Source: a bacterium (lineage in GTDB: Bacteria; AUK180). From it: a DNA stretch of 32,720 bases. The translations under genes were made by a program, and so were the position numbers. The stretch is taken from NCBI GenBank assembly GCA_030622125.1, contig JAUXGM010000005.1, positions 1 through 32,720 of the forward strand. The letters run 5' to 3'. This document shows, one piece after another, positions 3,696 through 24,111 of the stretch. The notes under the pieces were generated by a model. The model was not told the origin of the DNA. It ran no database searches and saw only the letters and a list, made by a program, of their open reading frames with translations. Each line of letters begins with the position of its first letter. Positions within the stretch are counted from its first letter, which is position 1.

Positions 3696-3706
3696 CGGGT
3701 TTGTAG

Positions 3707-3726
3707 ATTCCCGTTTGCATGGGAAT
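3707..3726 (+). repeat. short palindrome ATTCCC-N8-GGGAAT
   Basis: attcccgtttgcatgggaat, perfect 6-bp arms with 8-nt spacer. Confidence 0.7.
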
Positions 3727-3755
3727 GGCAGTTGAATATAATGAACAATGAACCA

Positions 3756-3776
3756 CAGCACCTTTTCAAAGTGCTG
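3756..3776 (+). repeat. palindromic repeat cagcaccttttcaaagtgctg
   Basis: Matches 23648..23668 (inside the S1 gene) at 20/21 positions. Confidence 0.75.
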
Positions 3777-3782
3777 AGCGGA

Positions 3783-3852
3783 TAGAAAAGTAAAATTTCT
3801 GTTTTATAGGTTCTTTTAGAATTTTTATTTTCAGAATTTAGCGAGAGGAATT
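3783..3852 (+). repeat. imperfect ~70-bp direct repeat, copy B
   Basis: See 2205..2274. Confidence 0.75.
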
Positions 3853-3913
3853 TACGAAAAAATGAAGAAAGTGTTACAATTATTTAAAAATGTAAATATA
3901 TTTAGGAGGTTGT

Positions 3914-4144
3914 ATGAAAAAGAGTATTGTAATGTTAATTACACTTATTTGCATGCTTGGATTATTAAATTGTAATCAAGAAGGGTACTTAGCAAAACCT
4001 GTCGTTGATACAATAACCGGAACTGATTACTCTTTTAAACTAATTACAAAAGATCATTATACAATATCCTGTCCCAATCCGGAAAAATTTGGCTATAAGG
4101 AAATTTATTATGATTCCAAAGTGGGGTTGAAAATAAATAAATAA
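3914..4144 (+). CDS. small putative lipoprotein
   Basis: aggagg RBS, signal peptide with lipobox-like LLNC (MKKSIVMLITLICMLGLLNCNQ); 76 aa. Confidence 0.6.
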   Translation: MKKSIVMLITLICMLGLLNCNQEGYLAKPVVDTITGTDYSFKLITKDHYTISCPNPEKFGYKEIYYDSKVGLKINK

Positions 4145-4234
4145 AAAAATGGGTCCGTGAGTTTACAAATCTTTCGGATTTGCAGCAGGACACAAATTTA
4201 CAAATCAAAAAAACAATGTCAAAGGTCAAAAGAT

Positions 4235-4314
4235 AGATTCTTCAATCGTGTAGTTTACCCCGTATCCTGATTTTCATCGGGACAGGCTTTGATTCGGGGC
4301 TCAATCAGAATGAC
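4235..4314 (-). repeat. dispersed repeat with ends GTCATTCTGA...GAAGAATCT (minus-strand reading)
   Basis: agattcttca...tcagaatgac; shares both ends with the element inside the S1 gene at 23798..23826. Confidence 0.5.
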
Positions 4315-4383
4315 GAAATGGGCAAGCGAATTTGCCTGCCTGTGCGTTGCACGCAGACAGGCAACTGGATTTCCTTGGTCGCC

Positions 4384-4432
4384 TATTGTTCTCGGGTGGT
4401 CTATCGTTATCTAAGGAAGAATCCGGGACACA
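4384..4432 (+). repeat. 49-bp exact direct repeat, copy 1
   Basis: tattgttctcgggtggtctatcgttatctaaggaagaatccgggacaca, identical to 4593..4641. Confidence 0.9.
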
Positions 4433-4466
4433 GTCTTGGGACACACAGTGACGAAGTCACACAATA

Positions 4467-4517
4467 GGGACATACCTTCCCGTATCAGATACGGGATAAA
4501 TTCCGAAGGTGTGTCCC
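4467..4517 (+). repeat. 51-bp palindrome gggacataccttc...gaaggtgtgtccc with nested cccgtatcagatacggg
   Basis: 13-nt arms (one G:T wobble) enclosing a perfect 7-bp inner stem at 4479..4495. Confidence 0.75.
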
Positions 4518-4592
4518 GACACCTTTGTATTTATGTCCCGCCTGTTTGCGGTGTATTTTCTCTTGAACCTTTGATTCTATTTCCTTTGGCTA

Positions 4593-4641
4593 TATTGTTC
4601 TCGGGTGGTCTATCGTTATCTAAGGAAGAATCCGGGACACA
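4593..4641 (+). repeat. 49-bp exact direct repeat, copy 2
   Basis: Identical to 4384..4432. Confidence 0.9.
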
Positions 4642-4750
4642 CCTCAACAAAAAAAAATCTGTTTGATGAGGTAATGTCCCTCTTTTTATGGGGGACGGAG
4701 TTTTATATTATTTTTTACTAACCTCAAACCTCTAACCTCTTCTTACCCTC

Positions 4751-4781
4751 TCAACGGGTAGACACACAGGTCTACCCCTAC
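4751..4781 (-). repeat. 31-nt hairpin repeat GTAGGGGTAGACCTGTGTGTCTACCCGTTGA, minus-orientation copy
   Basis: Exact reverse complement of 32635..32665; 8-bp stem gggtagac/gtctaccc. Confidence 0.9.
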
Positions 4782-4795
4782 ATTTTTTCTTTCCT

Positions 4796-4827
4796 CATAC
4801 ACCCATCAACTCATCCACCCATTCACT
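4796..4827 (+). repeat. four-unit 8-nt array
   Basis: catacacc catcaact catccacc cattcact. Confidence 0.65.
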
Positions 4828-4838
4828 TTTTTCCTTAT

Positions 4839-6438: not shown

Positions 6439-7223
6439 TTTTTAATATATTTTATTAAAACATCCCTTAAAAAGATCATGCTTCTTAAAGAGGGCTGTAA
6501 AAAATTATCATAATTTTTGATCACATATACTCGTCCCGATCTTATTGCGGAAATATTATTAAATGCTCTGTCGATTATAATATCTTTTTTTATAAGATCT
6601 CCATTTTCAATAAATATAAAAATTATATCGGGATTCCTTCTTATAATATCTTCCTTTTTTATGATACCGTACCTATCTTTTAGATTTGAAGCAATATTTT
6701 TTAAACCGAGAATTTTTAGACATTCACCTTGAAATGTTCTTTCCCCAAATGTATAGTACGGATTTGTCCATATCAAACCAAGTACTTTTTTGCCATTGAA
6801 CTTGGGAATATCTTTTAATATTTTATCTATATTTTTTACGATCTCCGATGCTCTTTTTTCTCTATCCAACATTTTTCCGAGAAGAATATAGCTTTCTTTT
6901 AATTCTTGAATTGAACTGATATATATCTTTTTTGAAGGTACCTTAAATTTTTTGAGATTTTCGCCATCCTTTTCCTGAGAGATCGCTGTATAAAAAACAT
7001 AATCGGGTTTGAGCTTGATTATCTTTTCAATATTAACCTTTGAAAAATTTCCGACCTTTAAAGTAGTTGGAAATATATCCTCTGCAATTGTAGCGGTAAT
7101 ACTATCTGAAAGTTCCAGATCCACAAGGATCTTGGTAATATTAGGAGCAAGTGAAATGATCCCATTTGAAAAAACTACCTCAAAAACGAATAGCATTAAA
7201 AGAAAAAGAATGAATTTTTTCAT
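6435..7223 (-). CDS. btuF: periplasmic corrinoid-binding protein, BtuF-like
   Basis: Signal peptide; ISLAPNITKILVDLELSDSITA, KIIKLKPDYVF, RNPDIIFI; 4-bp overlaps with neighbours. Confidence 0.85.
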   Translation of the reverse strand: MKKFILFLLMLFVFEVVFSNGIISLAPNITKILVDLELSDSITATIAEDIFPTTLKVGNFSKVNIEKIIKLKPDYVFYTAISQEKDGENLKKFKVPSKKIYISSIQELKESYILLGKMLDREKRASEIVKNIDKILKDIPKFNGKKVLGLIWTNPYYTFGERTFQGECLKILGLKNIASNLKDRYGIIKKEDIIRRNPDIIFIFIENGDLIKKDIIIDRAFNNISAIRSGRVYVIKNYDNFLQPSLRSMIFLRDVLIKYIKK

Positions 7224-8968
7224 TCAATACCGATTTTCACAAAGAATTTCCTTCTTGCCAACGGATAATCTTCATCAGAAGGAGAATTGCCAAAATTTAT
7301 TTTTCCCTTACTGCCAAATAAATTTTTTATACCGAAAGAGGTCTTTAATCTTTTAATATCATATTGAAATAAAATATCTGCTTTATGGATGGGCAATAAC
7401 TTTTTTAATTGATCATTAAAATAGATATTTTTTTCAAGTCCCCTGTAAAGATAATCCATCTTAATTTTCCACTTTTTAACCTGAATTTGCACCGATAATG
7501 TATTGACGAGGTCGGGAAGATAAGTTGCCGGAAATTTTTTAGTTTCATATATGGTGTTTCCATTTATATCCACATCCGTTTTATAATATCTCTCTTGATC
7601 GCCCCAATTCGCCGATATTTTGTCATAGATAGTAACAAAATTGTATTTGAGTTCATAATTCAATGAGATACTGTTGATCTGTGCCTTGTTTATATTTTCC
7701 GCCTGATAATAATAGGTTGAGGGATCTTTCAAAATCCAAACAATCATATTTTTAATATTCTTATAATTATATGAAAGAGAAAATTTATTGATCTTGTATT
7801 TTAAAAAGAGGCTCGTTGCCTCTTCATTTTTCAGATTCTCGTTTCCTCCCATTTCCCAGTAGAGGTCATTTAAGGAAGGTTCTTTCAATCCCCTTGAAAG
7901 ATAGATCAGAACATCGCCGGTTCCAAATTTTCTTTCAAAGAACAAATTTCCCGAAAAGAAAATATCATTGAAAGATGAACTATTCAATTTTAAATTTCCA
8001 CCTATTCCAATAGGAAGATAGGCAGCGCCCAATGAAAATTCCTCTTTTTTTACATTTTTCTCATTATATTTAGTATAACAGATACTAAATTTTTCCGTAA
8101 ACCGCAAGTAATTGCCAAAAATAGTTCTATATAAATTGGAGGCACTGATAAGTTCATAGTCAATATTACTTGTGTAATATGTTCCAAAATATTCGGAAAG
8201 ATATGTTATTTTGCTGTTTTTATAGAAAATATTTCCATTAAGTTTTTTGCCTAATCCGGATAAAATAAACCAGAAATATTTTCCCGTTTGTCGGTTATCG
8301 GGATAGAGGGCATCATCATAAGAACCATCGGCGGGAACAGGTCCCGGCGTACCGAGATCCTCATCGGTATAATTCAGCAGAAAATTTAATAAATCCTTAA
8401 ATTGCATGTTTAATCCGAGATTATTTTTTTTGAAATCCGAATTTTTTCTGCCGCAATCTCCTGATTTTTCCTGAAACATAAGATTTATTTTAAGTTCTTT
8501 ACCTTTTACGGGAATGGTAGTGCAGATATCCCGTTGATTGGTGTCAATATAAAGATAGGAGCTCAATTGCATCTTGATATTATGATCTATTTTTAAATTT
8601 CCACCTATACCTTCTCCTCCAATGATAGATGATGTATCAAATCGATAGTATCGTATACTGTCAAAAAGATAGTCGGGGAAAAGAGAAAGATCAAGGTTTC
8701 CGGTTGTCGGATCATTTAAGACAACGGAATTAAGCATGATCGTTGTGTGAGTTGAAGAAAGTCCGGGTGAATTTAGAAATAGAGCACTTCCTTGATAAAA
8801 TCCATTAGGGATCAAATTGAGTTTAAATGCTTCAATATCATAGAGAGCATCTACCGTTGTAATTGTAAATGTTCGGGTATTATTTCTTGTTCCGATAACA
8901 AGAATTTCAACCGAAAAAATATAACCAGTGGCAAAAAAGAGAAACAGAACAATAATTAGTCGTTTCAT
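7220..8968 (-). CDS. btuB: TonB-dependent outer-membrane receptor, BtuB-like
   Basis: Signal peptide, TonB-box-like VEILVIGTR, plug TTIMLNSVVLNDPTTGNLDLSLFP...SSIIGGEGIGGNLKI, C-terminal RRKFFVKIGIE; downstream of a cobalamin riboswitch. Confidence 0.85.
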   Translation of the reverse strand: MKRLIIVLFLFFATGYIFSVEILVIGTRNNTRTFTITTVDALYDIEAFKLNLIPNGFYQGSALFLNSPGLSSTHTTIMLNSVVLNDPTTGNLDLSLFPDYLFDSIRYYRFDTSSIIGGEGIGGNLKIDHNIKMQLSSYLYIDTNQRDICTTIPVKGKELKINLMFQEKSGDCGRKNSDFKKNNLGLNMQFKDLLNFLLNYTDEDLGTPGPVPADGSYDDALYPDNRQTGKYFWFILSGLGKKLNGNIFYKNSKITYLSEYFGTYYTSNIDYELISASNLYRTIFGNYLRFTEKFSICYTKYNEKNVKKEEFSLGAAYLPIGIGGNLKLNSSSFNDIFFSGNLFFERKFGTGDVLIYLSRGLKEPSLNDLYWEMGGNENLKNEEATSLFLKYKINKFSLSYNYKNIKNMIVWILKDPSTYYYQAENINKAQINSISLNYELKYNFVTIYDKISANWGDQERYYKTDVDINGNTIYETKKFPATYLPDLVNTLSVQIQVKKWKIKMDYLYRGLEKNIYFNDQLKKLLPIHKADILFQYDIKRLKTSFGIKNLFGSKGKINFGNSPSDEDYPLARRKFFVKIGIE

Positions 8969-8994
8969 TGCATCCTCCGTACTAATAATATTTA

Positions 8995-9118
8995 GGTAAA
9001 TATCCTGACTTGAGTATCAAGCCTCGTCCTTCCCTTCCCGGTATCATCCAGTGGTATGAAGGATTTGTAACTCTCACAGTTGCGGGGACAGTTGCGGATT
9101 TTCACCACATTCCTTACC
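8995..9118 (-). promoter_or_regulatory. cobalamin riboswitch
   Basis: Minus strand: ggtaaggaatgtGGTGAAAATCCgcaactgtCCCCGCAACTGTGAg...ACCACTGGatgataCCGGGAAGGgaaggacgaggcttgatactcAAGTCAGGAtatttacc; P1 ends ggtaa/ttacc. Confidence 0.95.
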
Positions 9119-9194
9119 ATTTTTATTATAACAAAAAATATTAAATTTTTCAAAATTTTTTAATAAAACCAAGAAAATCCTTTTAAATTTTCTT

Positions 9195-20607: not shown

Positions 20608-21254
20608 CCATTGCAATTGATGGTCCGGCAGGAAGCGGAAAATCAACCATTGCAAGAGAATTATCGAAGAAGCTTTCCATTGTTTATATCGACACCGGAG
20701 CATTTTACCGAAGCGTTGCATTATTTAAGCTCAGAAATAAAGATGCAAAAGAAGATGAAATTACTCAATTCGCCCGAAATATGACCATAAAATTTAAAGA
20801 AACATCGGAAATTACCGGAATTTTCTTAAATGGTGAGGATGTAACCGAGATAATAAGAGGATCCGATGTAACCGAACTGGTGTCTGATGTTGCCGATATA
20901 AAAAATGTGAGAATAGAAATAAATAAGGGATTAAGGAGAATGGCAGAGAAAAACGGGGGTATTCTTGAAGGCAGGGATATTCAAACCCTTGTTCTTCCGT
21001 TCGCTGATTATAAATTTTTCTTGATCGCTTCTCCCGAGATAAGAGCAAAAAGGAGATTAAAGGATTATAAAAAATTAAATATTAAAAAAAATTTTAGTAG
21101 CGTTCTGAAAGATATAATCGCTCGTGACAAAAGGGATAAAAACAGAGATTTTGGTGCCTTGAAAAAAGCAAAAGACGCTATAATAATAAACAGCAGTGAT
21201 ATGACATTGAAAGAAGTTTTAGAAAAAATATTATTTTTTTTAAAAAAAGATTGA
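20592..21254 (+). CDS. cmk: cytidylate kinase, AUU start inferred
   Basis: The frame of ORF 20781..21254 extends upstream to KKNITIAIDGPAGSGKSTIARELSKKLSIVYIDTGAFYRSVA; AGGAGGT at 20579..20585, then ATT at 20592; in-frame stop TAG at 20562..20564 and no ATG/GTG/TTG before the P-loop. Confidence 0.88.
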   Translation: MKKNITIAIDGPAGSGKSTIARELSKKLSIVYIDTGAFYRSVALFKLRNKDAKEDEITQFARNMTIKFKETSEITGIFLNGEDVTEIIRGSDVTELVSDVADIKNVRIEINKGLRRMAEKNGGILEGRDIQTLVLPFADYKFFLIASPEIRAKRRLKDYKKLNIKKNFSSVLKDIIARDKRDKNRDFGALKKAKDAIIINSSDMTLKEVLEKILFFLKKD

Positions 21255-21277
21255 TTTTATTTGAAAGAAAAGGTATA

Positions 21278-21919
21278 ATGAAAATATTTAGGTACTATTT
21301 TTACCAAACAATGACATTATTAGTAAGGTTCTTTGTTAGATTTTTTTTACGGTTTAAGTTGATAAAATTGGAAAAAAGCATCAAGAAAAGAGGAAACATT
21401 CTTGTAATTTCCAACCATCAAAGCTTACTTGATCCTCCGATAATAGGGAGTTTCATAACTGAACTTTATCTTTCGGTTTTTGCAAAGGCGGAACTTTTTA
21501 AGGTTCCGGTTTTAAGAAAAGTTATTATACTTTTAAATGCTTTCCCCGTAAAAAGAGGCGAAGCGGATATCGATGCCCTGCGAAAAGCAATAACTATTCT
21601 AAAAGCAAATGGCGCATTGATGATGTTTCCCGAAGGAACGCGAACAACTGATGGTAAAATGGGTCCCTTTAAAAGAGGAGTCGGTTACATTGCAAGTAAA
21701 GCAAAATGTAATGTTCTTCCTGTATATATAAAAGGTTTTGACCGTGTAATACCTAAAAAAGGTAAACTACATTTCCGTTGGCCTATGTCAATGGTGGTAG
21801 GAGAAATGATAGAATATAAAGAGATAAAACAAGATATGAAAAACGAAAAAAATTATACTAAAATATCTGAATATTTGTATGGTAAGGTTAAAAGCTTAGC
21901 CAGGGAGGCAAAAAAATGA
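21278..21919 (+). CDS. plsC: 1-acyl-sn-glycerol-3-phosphate acyltransferase
   Basis: ISNHQSLLDPPII (NHxxxxD), MFPEGTRT; start at MKIFRYYFYQ. Confidence 0.92.
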   Translation: MKIFRYYFYQTMTLLVRFFVRFFLRFKLIKLEKSIKKRGNILVISNHQSLLDPPIIGSFITELYLSVFAKAELFKVPVLRKVIILLNAFPVKRGEADIDALRKAITILKANGALMMFPEGTRTTDGKMGPFKRGVGYIASKAKCNVLPVYIKGFDRVIPKKGKLHFRWPMSMVVGEMIEYKEIKQDMKNEKNYTKISEYLYGKVKSLAREAKK

Positions 21920-24111
21920 TAGATAATCCAAAAGGTCCAAAACGGGGAGATGTAACAGAAGTTGTTGTAGCAAAAAAAACCGATGAGTATGTAATTGTAG
22001 AAACCGATTATAAAAATGACGGGCAAATTCCTGCATCAGAATTTACAGAAAGAGAATTAAAGCAATTAAAAGAAGGGGCTAAAATAAGAGTAATGGCTGT
22101 GGGATTTAGAGAAGGTATGCTCACTTTCTCCAAAATAGAAGCTGAAAAAGCAGACCAATGGTCAATGCTTAGAACAACCAAAGAAAAAAGGCAGCAGATA
22201 CTTGTTGAATTCAAGGAATTCGGTGAATATTTACATAGAAATAGATTTATTTCAAGAAAAGGATATTGGGGAGCTTATCTTAACTTTAAGGTTTTCATAC
22301 CGGAAAATGAGATTTCAAGAGAATCAAAAAGAGAACATAAGAACCTCACCGGATTAAAGTTACCGGTTAAAATAATTATGCTAATGGGAAGAGACAAAGT
22401 TATAGTTGCTTCGGAAAAAATGTTTGTTCTTGAAGAACGATACAAAAGAAGAGAAGAGCTTTTAGAGAAATTGGATATTGGGGTTATTCTTAAAGGCAAA
22501 GTTATCAGAGCAGACATAGAAAAAAAGGCATTTATTATTGACCTTAACGGATTGATCGGAAAAATGAAGTTTGAAAATGTATCATGGGACAGGTATCAAA
22601 ATCCAAGAGAAAGGATAAAAATCGGGGATACGGTTGAGGTTGTTGTGGTTGATTTCAATAAAGAAACGAAAGAAGTTTATCTTAGTTTAAAGGACCTAAC
22701 AGATGACCCATGGGAAAATGTTGAAGAAATCTTTAAAATTGGGGATATTGTTGAAGGGGAAGTATATAGAATTTTTGATTTTGGAGCTGTTATAAATCTA
22801 AACAGTGATTTCAGGGCACTGATACCAAATGAAGAATTGACATTGACAAGAAGAGTAAAAAATCCAAAAGACATAATACATATCGGTGAAAGATTAAAAG
22901 GTATAATAAAAAGAATAGATATTGACAATCGGAAAATTATTGTTTCTATAAAGGATATAATATTACAAAAGTATAACACCGGTGATATTGTAAAGGGGAA
23001 AGTAATAAAAGTAGAAAAATATGGTGCATTTGTAGAATTGGAACCCGGTGTTACGGGACTTTTAAAGGTTGAGGATATTTCCTGGAGTAAAAAAGTCAGA
23101 AATGCACAAAATCTAATAAAGGAAGGTGAAATAGTCGAAGCAAAAATACTTTCAATAGATACCTTTAAAAGACAGATTGATTTTGGTGTTAAGCAGATAT
23201 TGCCAAATCCGTGGGATAACGTAGAAGAAAAATATCCGATTGGTAGTAAAGCAAAAGGAATTGTGGTTAAAATAATAGATGCGGGGGCTTTTATTAATCT
23301 TGATGAGAATTTTGATGCTTTTTTACATCGTTCTAAGGTATCAGCCAAAAGTGAAGCAGAAAATTGGAAGGATAAACTTGAAATCGGAAAAGAAGTTGAA
23401 GGAACAATTATTCATATAAATGCCGGAGAGAATAAAATCCAAATATCTCTTTTAGAAGAGGCTAATATTAAAAGAACAGTAAAGGCAGCGGGACATTCCT
23501 CTGGTGTGTCTCAAGAAGAGGCTCCAAAAGAAGAAGAGAAGGAAGTAACTTTAAGCGATGCCTTCTCACCGGAGATCATTGAACTTATGAAGAAAAAAGT
23601 TAAGGAAAAAGAGGAAGAAAAGACAGTGAATAGTGAACAGTTAATCACAGCACCTTTCCAAAGTGCTGGACAGGTAGTGAATAGTGAAGAAAAAAAAGAA
23701 GAAACCATAAAAGAAGAGGTTGGGGGCAATAAAGAAATGGACAATGGACAATTGACAATGGACAATGGAGAAAAAAAAGAAGAAGTTACCCCCTCCAGTC
23801 ATTCTGAGGCTTCAGCCGAAGAATCCACAACCACAGAGGAAGAAAAAACAATTGACAATGGACAATTGACAATTGACAATTATAAAGAAGTGAATAGTGA
23901 GGAGAAAGAAAAAAAGAAAGAAGAAAAGACAATGAATAGTGAGGAAAAAGAAGTAGGAAGTGAGAAGTTAGAAGTGAAAAGTGAAGAAAAAACAAAAGAA
24001 GAAGAAAAAGACAAAGAAAAAACAGAGGGAAAAGAAGAAAGAACTAAAAAAACAATCAAAAAACCAAAAAAAATTGTTAAAAAGTCTACAAAGAAGAAGG
24101 AAAAACAATAA
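21916..24111 (+). CDS. rpsA: S1-domain RNA-binding protein (ribosomal protein S1-like) with long Glu/Lys-rich tail
   Basis: Multiple S1 domains (e.g. GDIVKGKVIKVEKYGAFVELEPGVTGLLKVEDISW), downstream of cmk and plsC; tail of ~215 residues after ISLLEEANIKRTV. Confidence 0.92.
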   Translation: MIDNPKGPKRGDVTEVVVAKKTDEYVIVETDYKNDGQIPASEFTERELKQLKEGAKIRVMAVGFREGMLTFSKIEAEKADQWSMLRTTKEKRQQILVEFKEFGEYLHRNRFISRKGYWGAYLNFKVFIPENEISRESKREHKNLTGLKLPVKIIMLMGRDKVIVASEKMFVLEERYKRREELLEKLDIGVILKGKVIRADIEKKAFIIDLNGLIGKMKFENVSWDRYQNPRERIKIGDTVEVVVVDFNKETKEVYLSLKDLTDDPWENVEEIFKIGDIVEGEVYRIFDFGAVINLNSDFRALIPNEELTLTRRVKNPKDIIHIGERLKGIIKRIDIDNRKIIVSIKDIILQKYNTGDIVKGKVIKVEKYGAFVELEPGVTGLLKVEDISWSKKVRNAQNLIKEGEIVEAKILSIDTFKRQIDFGVKQILPNPWDNVEEKYPIGSKAKGIVVKIIDAGAFINLDENFDAFLHRSKVSAKSEAENWKDKLEIGKEVEGTIIHINAGENKIQISLLEEANIKRTVKAAGHSSGVSQEEAPKEEEKEVTLSDAFSPEIIELMKKKVKEKEEEKTVNSEQLITAPFQSAGQVVNSEEKKEETIKEEVGGNKEMDNGQLTMDNGEKKEEVTPSSHSEASAEESTTTEEEKTIDNGQLTIDNYKEVNSEEKEKKKEEKTMNSEEKEVGSEKLEVKSEEKTKEEEKDKEKTEGKEERTKKTIKKPKKIVKKSTKKKEKQ
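23490..23512 (+). repeat. gggacattcctctggtgtgtctc element within the S1 gene
   Basis: Resembles the arms gggacataccttc/gaaggtgtgtccc of 4467..4517; translated GHSSGVS. Confidence 0.4.
23626..23668 (+). repeat. 7-nt units plus cagcacctttccaaagtgctg palindrome within the S1 gene
   Basis: gtgaata gtgaaca gttaatc then the palindrome found intergenically at 3756..3776. Confidence 0.75.
23740..23767 (+). repeat. four-unit 7-nt array within the S1 gene
   Basis: gacaatg gacaatt gacaatg gacaatg. Confidence 0.9.
23798..23826 (+). repeat. gtcattctgaggcttcagccgaagaatcc element within the S1 gene
   Basis: Shares ends with intergenic 4235..4314 (opposite orientation). Confidence 0.55.
23854..23881 (+). 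repeat. four-unit 7-nt array within the S1 gene
   Basis: gacaatg gacaatt gacaatt gacaatt. Confidence 0.9.
23953..23987 (+). repeat. five-unit degenerate 7-nt array within the S1 gene
   Basis: gtaggaa gtgagaa gttagaa gtgaaaa gtgaaga. Confidence 0.7.

Follow-up and report, generated by a model that had tools for sequence, protein, structure and literature searches.

Dispersed repeats read in frame in the C-terminal tail of ribosomal protein S1 and in other genes of a draft bacterial genome

RAYT-associated REP sequences are GTAG/CGTC-tagged palindromes that are mobilised by a REP-associated transposase. Rickettsia palindromic elements (RPE) occur between genes and also in frame inside unrelated conserved proteins, where they are tolerated, and are single palindromes of ∼105-150 bp with one conserved peptide (PMC2229807, PMC10969869). 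Small non-autonomous repeats of the MITE/ERIC type have been found fused in frame to ORFs (PMC2229807), and in PARCEL dyad-symmetric repeat DNA encodes variable protein segments that are shuffled within genomes (PMC2996958). The TAACTGA heptamers of Beggiatoaceae, Cyanobacteria and Bacteroidetes are direct repeats that are mostly intergenic, with a few copies in ORFs and these mostly at protein ends; within ORFs the strand that is read is the stop-free one (LSVISYQ), and copies in the stop-prone orientation do no more than terminate an ORF (PMC4679880).

The window analysed here is a stretch of 32,720 nucleotides that makes up the entire contig C50; the draft genome to which it belongs comprises 2.08 Mb in 192 contigs. 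Its plus strand carries at 21916..24111 a ribosomal protein S1 gene of 731 codons, assigned from the ORF, its translation and Pfam, which finds four S1 domain stretches in the product (E 9e-48); the 5′ end of the gene overlaps the 3′ end of a plsC-like ORF (21251-21919, plsC named by eye). The best named relatives of the protein (from Lentisphaerae, Planctomycetes, Omnitrophota, Krumholzibacteriia and others) are 25-34% identical, and orthologues in the family genomes G001-G004 are 47-57% identical across most of the protein and 55-64% in the core. Alignment of the five family members gives a well conserved S1 core (residues 1-514), a variable linker plus the family-conserved motif EVTLSDAFSPEIIELMKKK (residues 515-566; 23458..23613, plus strand) and a lineage-specific tail of 165 codons and disordered type (23614..24108, plus strand; alignment and composition). 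A conserved block ending EVTLSD..SPEIIELMKKK is present in all five. An earlier sequence-only reading had proposed a tail of ∼215 codons assembled from intergenic repeats; its length has to be reduced, as residues 515-566 fall in the family-conserved block and the lineage-specific part is ∼165 codons. Glu and Lys account for 45% of the tail and hydrophobic residues for 17%, versus 23% and 41% in the core, and judged by this composition the tail is predicted to be unstructured. An Rfam search of the tail gave no match.

Assembly from repeats holds for roughly half of the tail, which consists of two 28-nt heptamer arrays, the palindrome CAGCACCTTTCCAAAGTGCTG, a GTCATTCTGA...GAAGAATCC element and GTGAATAGTGA / GAGGTTAGAGGCAATAAA words; the remainder is E/K-rich linker. 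On the plus strand, in order, are a dispersed GTGAATAGTGAACAGTTAAT word (23618..23645, 96% over 28 nt to the search word), read TVNSEQLI, other copies of which are intergenic or lie in S16, in a probable L15 and in proteins of contigs C58, C1 and C44; the palindrome (23648..23668), read TAPFQSA, with an intergenic plus-strand copy at 3756..3776 that is, as first noted, identical at 20 of 21 positions; the composite EEVGGNKEMDNGQLTMDNGEKKEEVTPSS (23710..23799), common to several protein tails and made up of a GAGGTTGGGGGCAATAAA word, a heptamer array and linker, the array being TGGACAA-TGGACAA-TTGACAA-TGGACAA (23738..23765), read MDNGQLTMDN; a GTCATTCTGAGGCTTCAGCCGAAGAATCC element (23798..23826; 7 genome copies, control 0), read SHSEASAEES; a second array, TTGACAA-TGGACAA-TTGACAA-TTGACAA (23852..23879), read IDNGQLTIDN; and degenerate 7-nt words MNSEEKEVGSEKLEVKSEE (23935..24000), for which non-coding DNA directly following a gene on contig C48 has a 66-nt match of 94% identity. 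Sequence and translation thus agree with the sequence-only reading that the named repeats lie where it had placed them and that no stop codon interrupts them. Of its three 7-nt arrays two are indeed arrays, of four units each, and the third (∼23953) is a degenerate run, while a GGGACA...TGTGTCTC element that it had counted in the tail is present at 23490..23512 (plus strand), shortened, read HSSGVS and related to intergenic GCGGGACRTNCCT...GTGTCCC elements, and lies ahead of the family-conserved motif. Intact GGGACA-type copies are visible among the intergenic elements, and GCGGGAC[AG]TNCCT has 23 copies in the genome DNA searched. Peptides predicted from the tail include EEKTIDNGQLTIDNYK and VNSEQLITAPFQSAGQVVNSEEK.

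That these repeats are dispersed and not a product of chance is borne out by their numbers. In the 2.08 Mb genome the TTGACAATGGACAATTGACAA heptamer pattern has 94 matches at ≤3 mismatches, the palindrome has 12 copies, 5 of them exact, and GTCATTCTGA-N(4-25)-GAAGAATCC has 7 (46 and 14 in two relatives), and reversed controls give 0 in each case (for the last pattern in the window genome). By BLAST the tail DNA has 60 matches in its own genome. Matches of ≥60 bits in the genome DNA compared number 26 for the real tail versus ≤18 for each of 200 codon-shuffled versions (same protein, same codons) and 0 for two pieces of the S1 core; because all 200 shuffled tails match less well, the likeness is one of DNA and goes beyond an effect of Glu/Lys codons.

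The tail is not common to G001-G004, an outcome that fails to refute the sequence-only reading. G003 S1 ends ∼6 residues past the conserved block (only 6 residues align to the tail), the tails of G001 and G004 S1 are EEVKEE-type tandem repeats, and that of G002 has KSEELKVKSE words of the 7-nt type; no intergenic copies of such words were found in 69 kb of G002 searched. Because G003 stops after the conserved block and the other tails are unrelated to that of the window, the window's tail is lineage-specific, and on present alignments it is not ancestral; the comparison extends to G001-G004 (55-64% core identity) and gives no direct view of an empty S1 site. Although G001 has more GTCATTCTGA elements than the window genome, inspection of its S1, L17 and L30 tails by eye shows none of the repeat words of the window's tail. 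Charged tails on S1, L17 and L30 are found in relatives as well. The L30 proteins of relatives (loci L368, L369 and L371 versus L370) have Lys/Ala- or Lys/Glu-rich tails of ∼90-120 residues in two genera; in the same comparison G003 L30 has no tail, in parallel to its S1.

The same words are found in frame in L17 (C110:1354-2229), L30 (C147, where the gene is cut by the contig end) and S16 (C49), and also in a SPOR-domain protein (C44), TPR proteins (C31, C1), unassigned proteins (C130, C58), a lipoprotein with a C-terminal SpoVG domain (C170) and a radical SAM enzyme (C76). On C110 a further repeat-word tail lies within a few bases of secY, on its upstream side, and because the order L30-L15-SecY holds in 4/4 relatives it is probably the end of L15; L15 of the four relatives is without such a tail. 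Tails are absent from the other ribosomal proteins encoded in the S10/spc cluster on C147. Carriers were found by targeted searches of the genome and the list is a lower bound, with at least 11 besides S1 and at least 7 of them non-ribosomal. The proposal that the repeats gather in the tail of S1 is correct for S1 itself but not in making it special, given S16, L17, L30, probable L15 and the non-ribosomal genes. Two candidates were rejected, an array on C184 that precedes the likely start codon and a C143 gene in which LINGRLTYDN is a chance peptide match in a normal enzyme. In the SPOR-domain protein (L338, C44:3-1118) the linkers carry in-frame palindromes, MPSTNLVRGER and NRGHTSDVQVCPDE, the latter being the GGGACA...TGTGTCCC element.

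Pairs of tails have long segments in common. S1 shares 90 nt (23710-23799) with L30 on C147 at 98%, and the same stretch matches two copies in the C31 TPR protein at 87-89%; 96 nt around the palindrome are shared with probable L15 on C110 at 93%, and 48 nt (23833-23880) with L17 at 98%. The GTCATTCTGAGGCTTCAGCCGAAGAATCC element is also in frame in the C130 protein (93% over 54 nt with the S1 tail), and a partial copy in L17 gives the peptide PSSHSEDLADYSN. With intergenic heptamer elements S1 shares ∼42-46 nt, within a different conserved context. Because the S1-L30 and S1-L15 stretches are longer than this, the pattern points to exchange of segments among tails after the repeats had entered. 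Codon differences in shared coding tail segments (34 synonymous and 116 non-synonymous, overlapping pairs counted) look roughly neutral, near the unconstrained expectation, and may be read as a loose constraint by which the tails stay open and stay polar.

The strongest evidence for insertion, beyond mere extension past a lost stop, comes from the radical SAM gene on C76. Here ∼50 residues (133-185) lie between conserved segments and are absent in 4/4 relatives, and the Pfam radical SAM match stops at residue 132. This insert combines a heptamer array, NTIDNEQWTMDN, with SLNNDRSPENSIAKGN downstream of it, a different repeat that has many copies in non-coding DNA, including one (matched stretch 4483-4626) within an intergenic repeat cluster of the window (3700..4830). 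An intergenic ttgttctcgggtggtctatcgttatctaaggaagaatccgggacac element, with window copies at 4375-4430 and 4583-4640, recurs in the genome and is also in frame in the radical SAM gene (L401).

Arrays of at least three heptamers number 46 in the genome DNA examined. The repeats are common in the genome and mostly intergenic, which favours the earlier reading, with 37 of the 46 arrays between genes and 9 within 7 genes, versus ∼42 genic arrays expected at 91% coding (the window figure). Most intergenic arrays are part of a larger dispersed element, GGGACATTACCGAAWACAA - four heptamers - TGAAAAAAAGACAAATACAAACTC...GCGGGAC (L344, L345, L346, L349, L350 and similar), which is separated from the nearest gene by some 70-280 nt and frequently sits at a contig end. 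All nine genic arrays are on the coding strand. When 12 carrier genes are compared with one another, their 308 ungapped DNA matches include none on the opposite strand, and those in other frames can mostly be put down to heptamer register shifts or to gaps in the alignment. The array strand usually has one or two open frames; the opposite strand nearly always has three, encodes the hydrophobic LSIVNCQ and is used by no gene. Intergenic arrays are in the sense orientation of the upstream gene in 19 of 27 cases (p = 0.05), and the difference in strand bias between genic and intergenic arrays gives a Fisher p = 0.07. Because intergenic arrays also lean to the sense of the upstream gene, strand by itself says little about protein-level selection, which would explain the genic bias only partly.

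The effect of frame is apparent for the GAGGTTAGAGG word that opens the composite. In the frame GAG-GTT-AGA-GGC it extends the protein (EVRG), as in S1, S16 and L30. A C82 gene (L329, C82:10717-12042, minus strand) ends AGA-GGT-TAG and a C48 gene (L362, C48:1283-2299, minus strand) ends at TGA-GGT-TAG, in both cases with a stop from the GAGGTTAGAGG repeat, and past these stops the same composite runs on as non-coding DNA. Because the two stops fall in its other two frames, the same repeat at a 3′ end extends or ends a gene according to frame.

Compared with the described systems, the parallel with RPE drawn in the sequence-only reading is one of functional likeness and not of membership, since element sizes and structures differ. 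As with RPE, one and the same repeat is intergenic in some places and read in frame within unrelated genes in others (9/46 arrays, 7 genes; words in S16 and in the C44, C58, C1 and C130 proteins), and insertions are absent from orthologues (the radical SAM insert in 4 relatives, the S1 tail in G003). In contrast to the ∼105-150 bp RPE palindrome with its internal ORF there are here palindromes of 20-30 nt, 28-nt arrays and composites, and these are concentrated in tails, including those of ribosomal proteins, and common between tails. The in-frame fusion of small repeats resembles that of MITE/ERIC-type elements; palindromes are present, element ends vary between copies, and no terminal inverted repeats or target-site duplications are defined here. 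PARCEL is similar in its dyad-symmetric repeats that encode variable segments and are shuffled in the genome but consists of tandem protein repeats of 25 residues in ORFs whose function is unknown, many of them targeted to the membrane (PMC2996958), whereas here intergenic elements lie in housekeeping-protein tails. With the TAACTGA heptamers of PMC4679880 the repeats have in common that they are direct, 7 nt long and mostly intergenic (37/46 arrays here) with one stop-prone strand; the units here are TTGACAA, TGGACAA, TGAATAG and similar and not TAACTGA, genes read the stop-prone, hydrophilic strand (DNGQLT), the opposite of LSVISYQ, and the carriers include ribosomal-protein tails, of which PMC4679880 gives none in the passages considered.

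We consider it likely that dispersed repeats accrete in frame at the 3′ ends of genes and within disordered linkers and have in this way extended the tails of S1 and other proteins. The S1 tail would be a fast-evolving, unstructured Glu/Lys-rich extension into which repeats were inserted or copied in frame; such entry would mainly be at these two kinds of site, with the open hydrophilic frame extending the protein and other frames supplying a stop that ends it. Hydrophilic open copies would be tolerated, and tails with common words (S1, L30, L17, probable L15, S16, TPR) may then exchange segments with strand and frame kept, probably by recombination or gene conversion. We infer this mechanism of insertion and exchange, and likewise that the tails are translated and stable and that they are tolerated, not selected for a job.

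An assembly artefact, in which repeats were collapsed or misjoined in a draft metagenome to give a chimeric tail, seems very unlikely, given that the S1 tail is internal to its contig with the reading frame kept throughout, that shared segments differ by substitutions and that the same pattern is found in at least 11 other genes, several of them off contig ends (L17, S16, radical SAM, the SpoVG-domain lipoprotein). The draft does have 192 contigs, many ending in these repeats, and the L30 contig ends within the 90 nt common to S1, such that the 3′ parts of the two tails could be swapped; error, which the sequence-only reading had itself raised, retains a small probability, and because the assembly is a draft in which repeats break contigs the order of segments past 23800 could be exchanged with that of the L30 tail. 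More improbable still, and at odds with the data at hand, is an ancient functional tail that evolved as protein, its likeness to intergenic DNA a low-complexity coincidence. S1 of G001, G002 and G004 also has long E/K-rich tails, and shuffled tails keep some matches where the S1-core pieces have none, so composition does raise the background, but each of the 200 shuffled versions falls short of the real tail in its genome matches, low complexity does not apply to the palindrome or the GTCATTCTGA element, both of which have controls of 0, and G003 S1 is without a tail.

S1 is an RNA-binding protein, and it is one of five ribosomal proteins (with S16, L17, L30 and probable L15) that have these words in common, with the strand identical and the frame mostly so; relatives, moreover, retain charged S1, L17 and L30 tails. 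The shared tails could on these grounds be functional, as selected acidic/polar words or as mRNA elements for coordinated control or ribosome clustering. Yet the same words are present in a lipoprotein, a SPOR protein and a radical SAM enzyme, the codon differences are roughly neutral, G003 has neither an S1 nor an L30 tail and the palindrome region shows only a modest tendency to fold (z = -1.9), and we regard a function of this kind as unlikely. There is a similarly small chance that the repeats were recruited as a selected tail module, a disordered tag or RNA element, on S1, S16, L17, L30 and probably L15; if true, repeat expansion would have reshaped the ribosome surface of this organism.

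We found no earlier report of ribosomal-protein tails from intergenic repeats in the open-access literature, in keeping with the original remark that this is not a standard observation. With accretion of repeats as the preferred explanation, non-coding repeats would be a source of new protein sequence in essential, otherwise conserved proteins. The steps can be seen side by side in one genome, in intergenic, gene-ending, gene-extending and enzyme-internal repeats and in exchange between tails, and they offer a testable route to long, disordered, lineage-specific tails of ribosomal proteins. Tails built in this manner say little about function, and they cause assemblies to break.

Elsewhere in the window a cobalamin riboswitch aptamer (Rfam RF00174, 85.8 bits) is located at 8978-9159 on the minus strand, just upstream of the minus-strand gene at 7220-8968.
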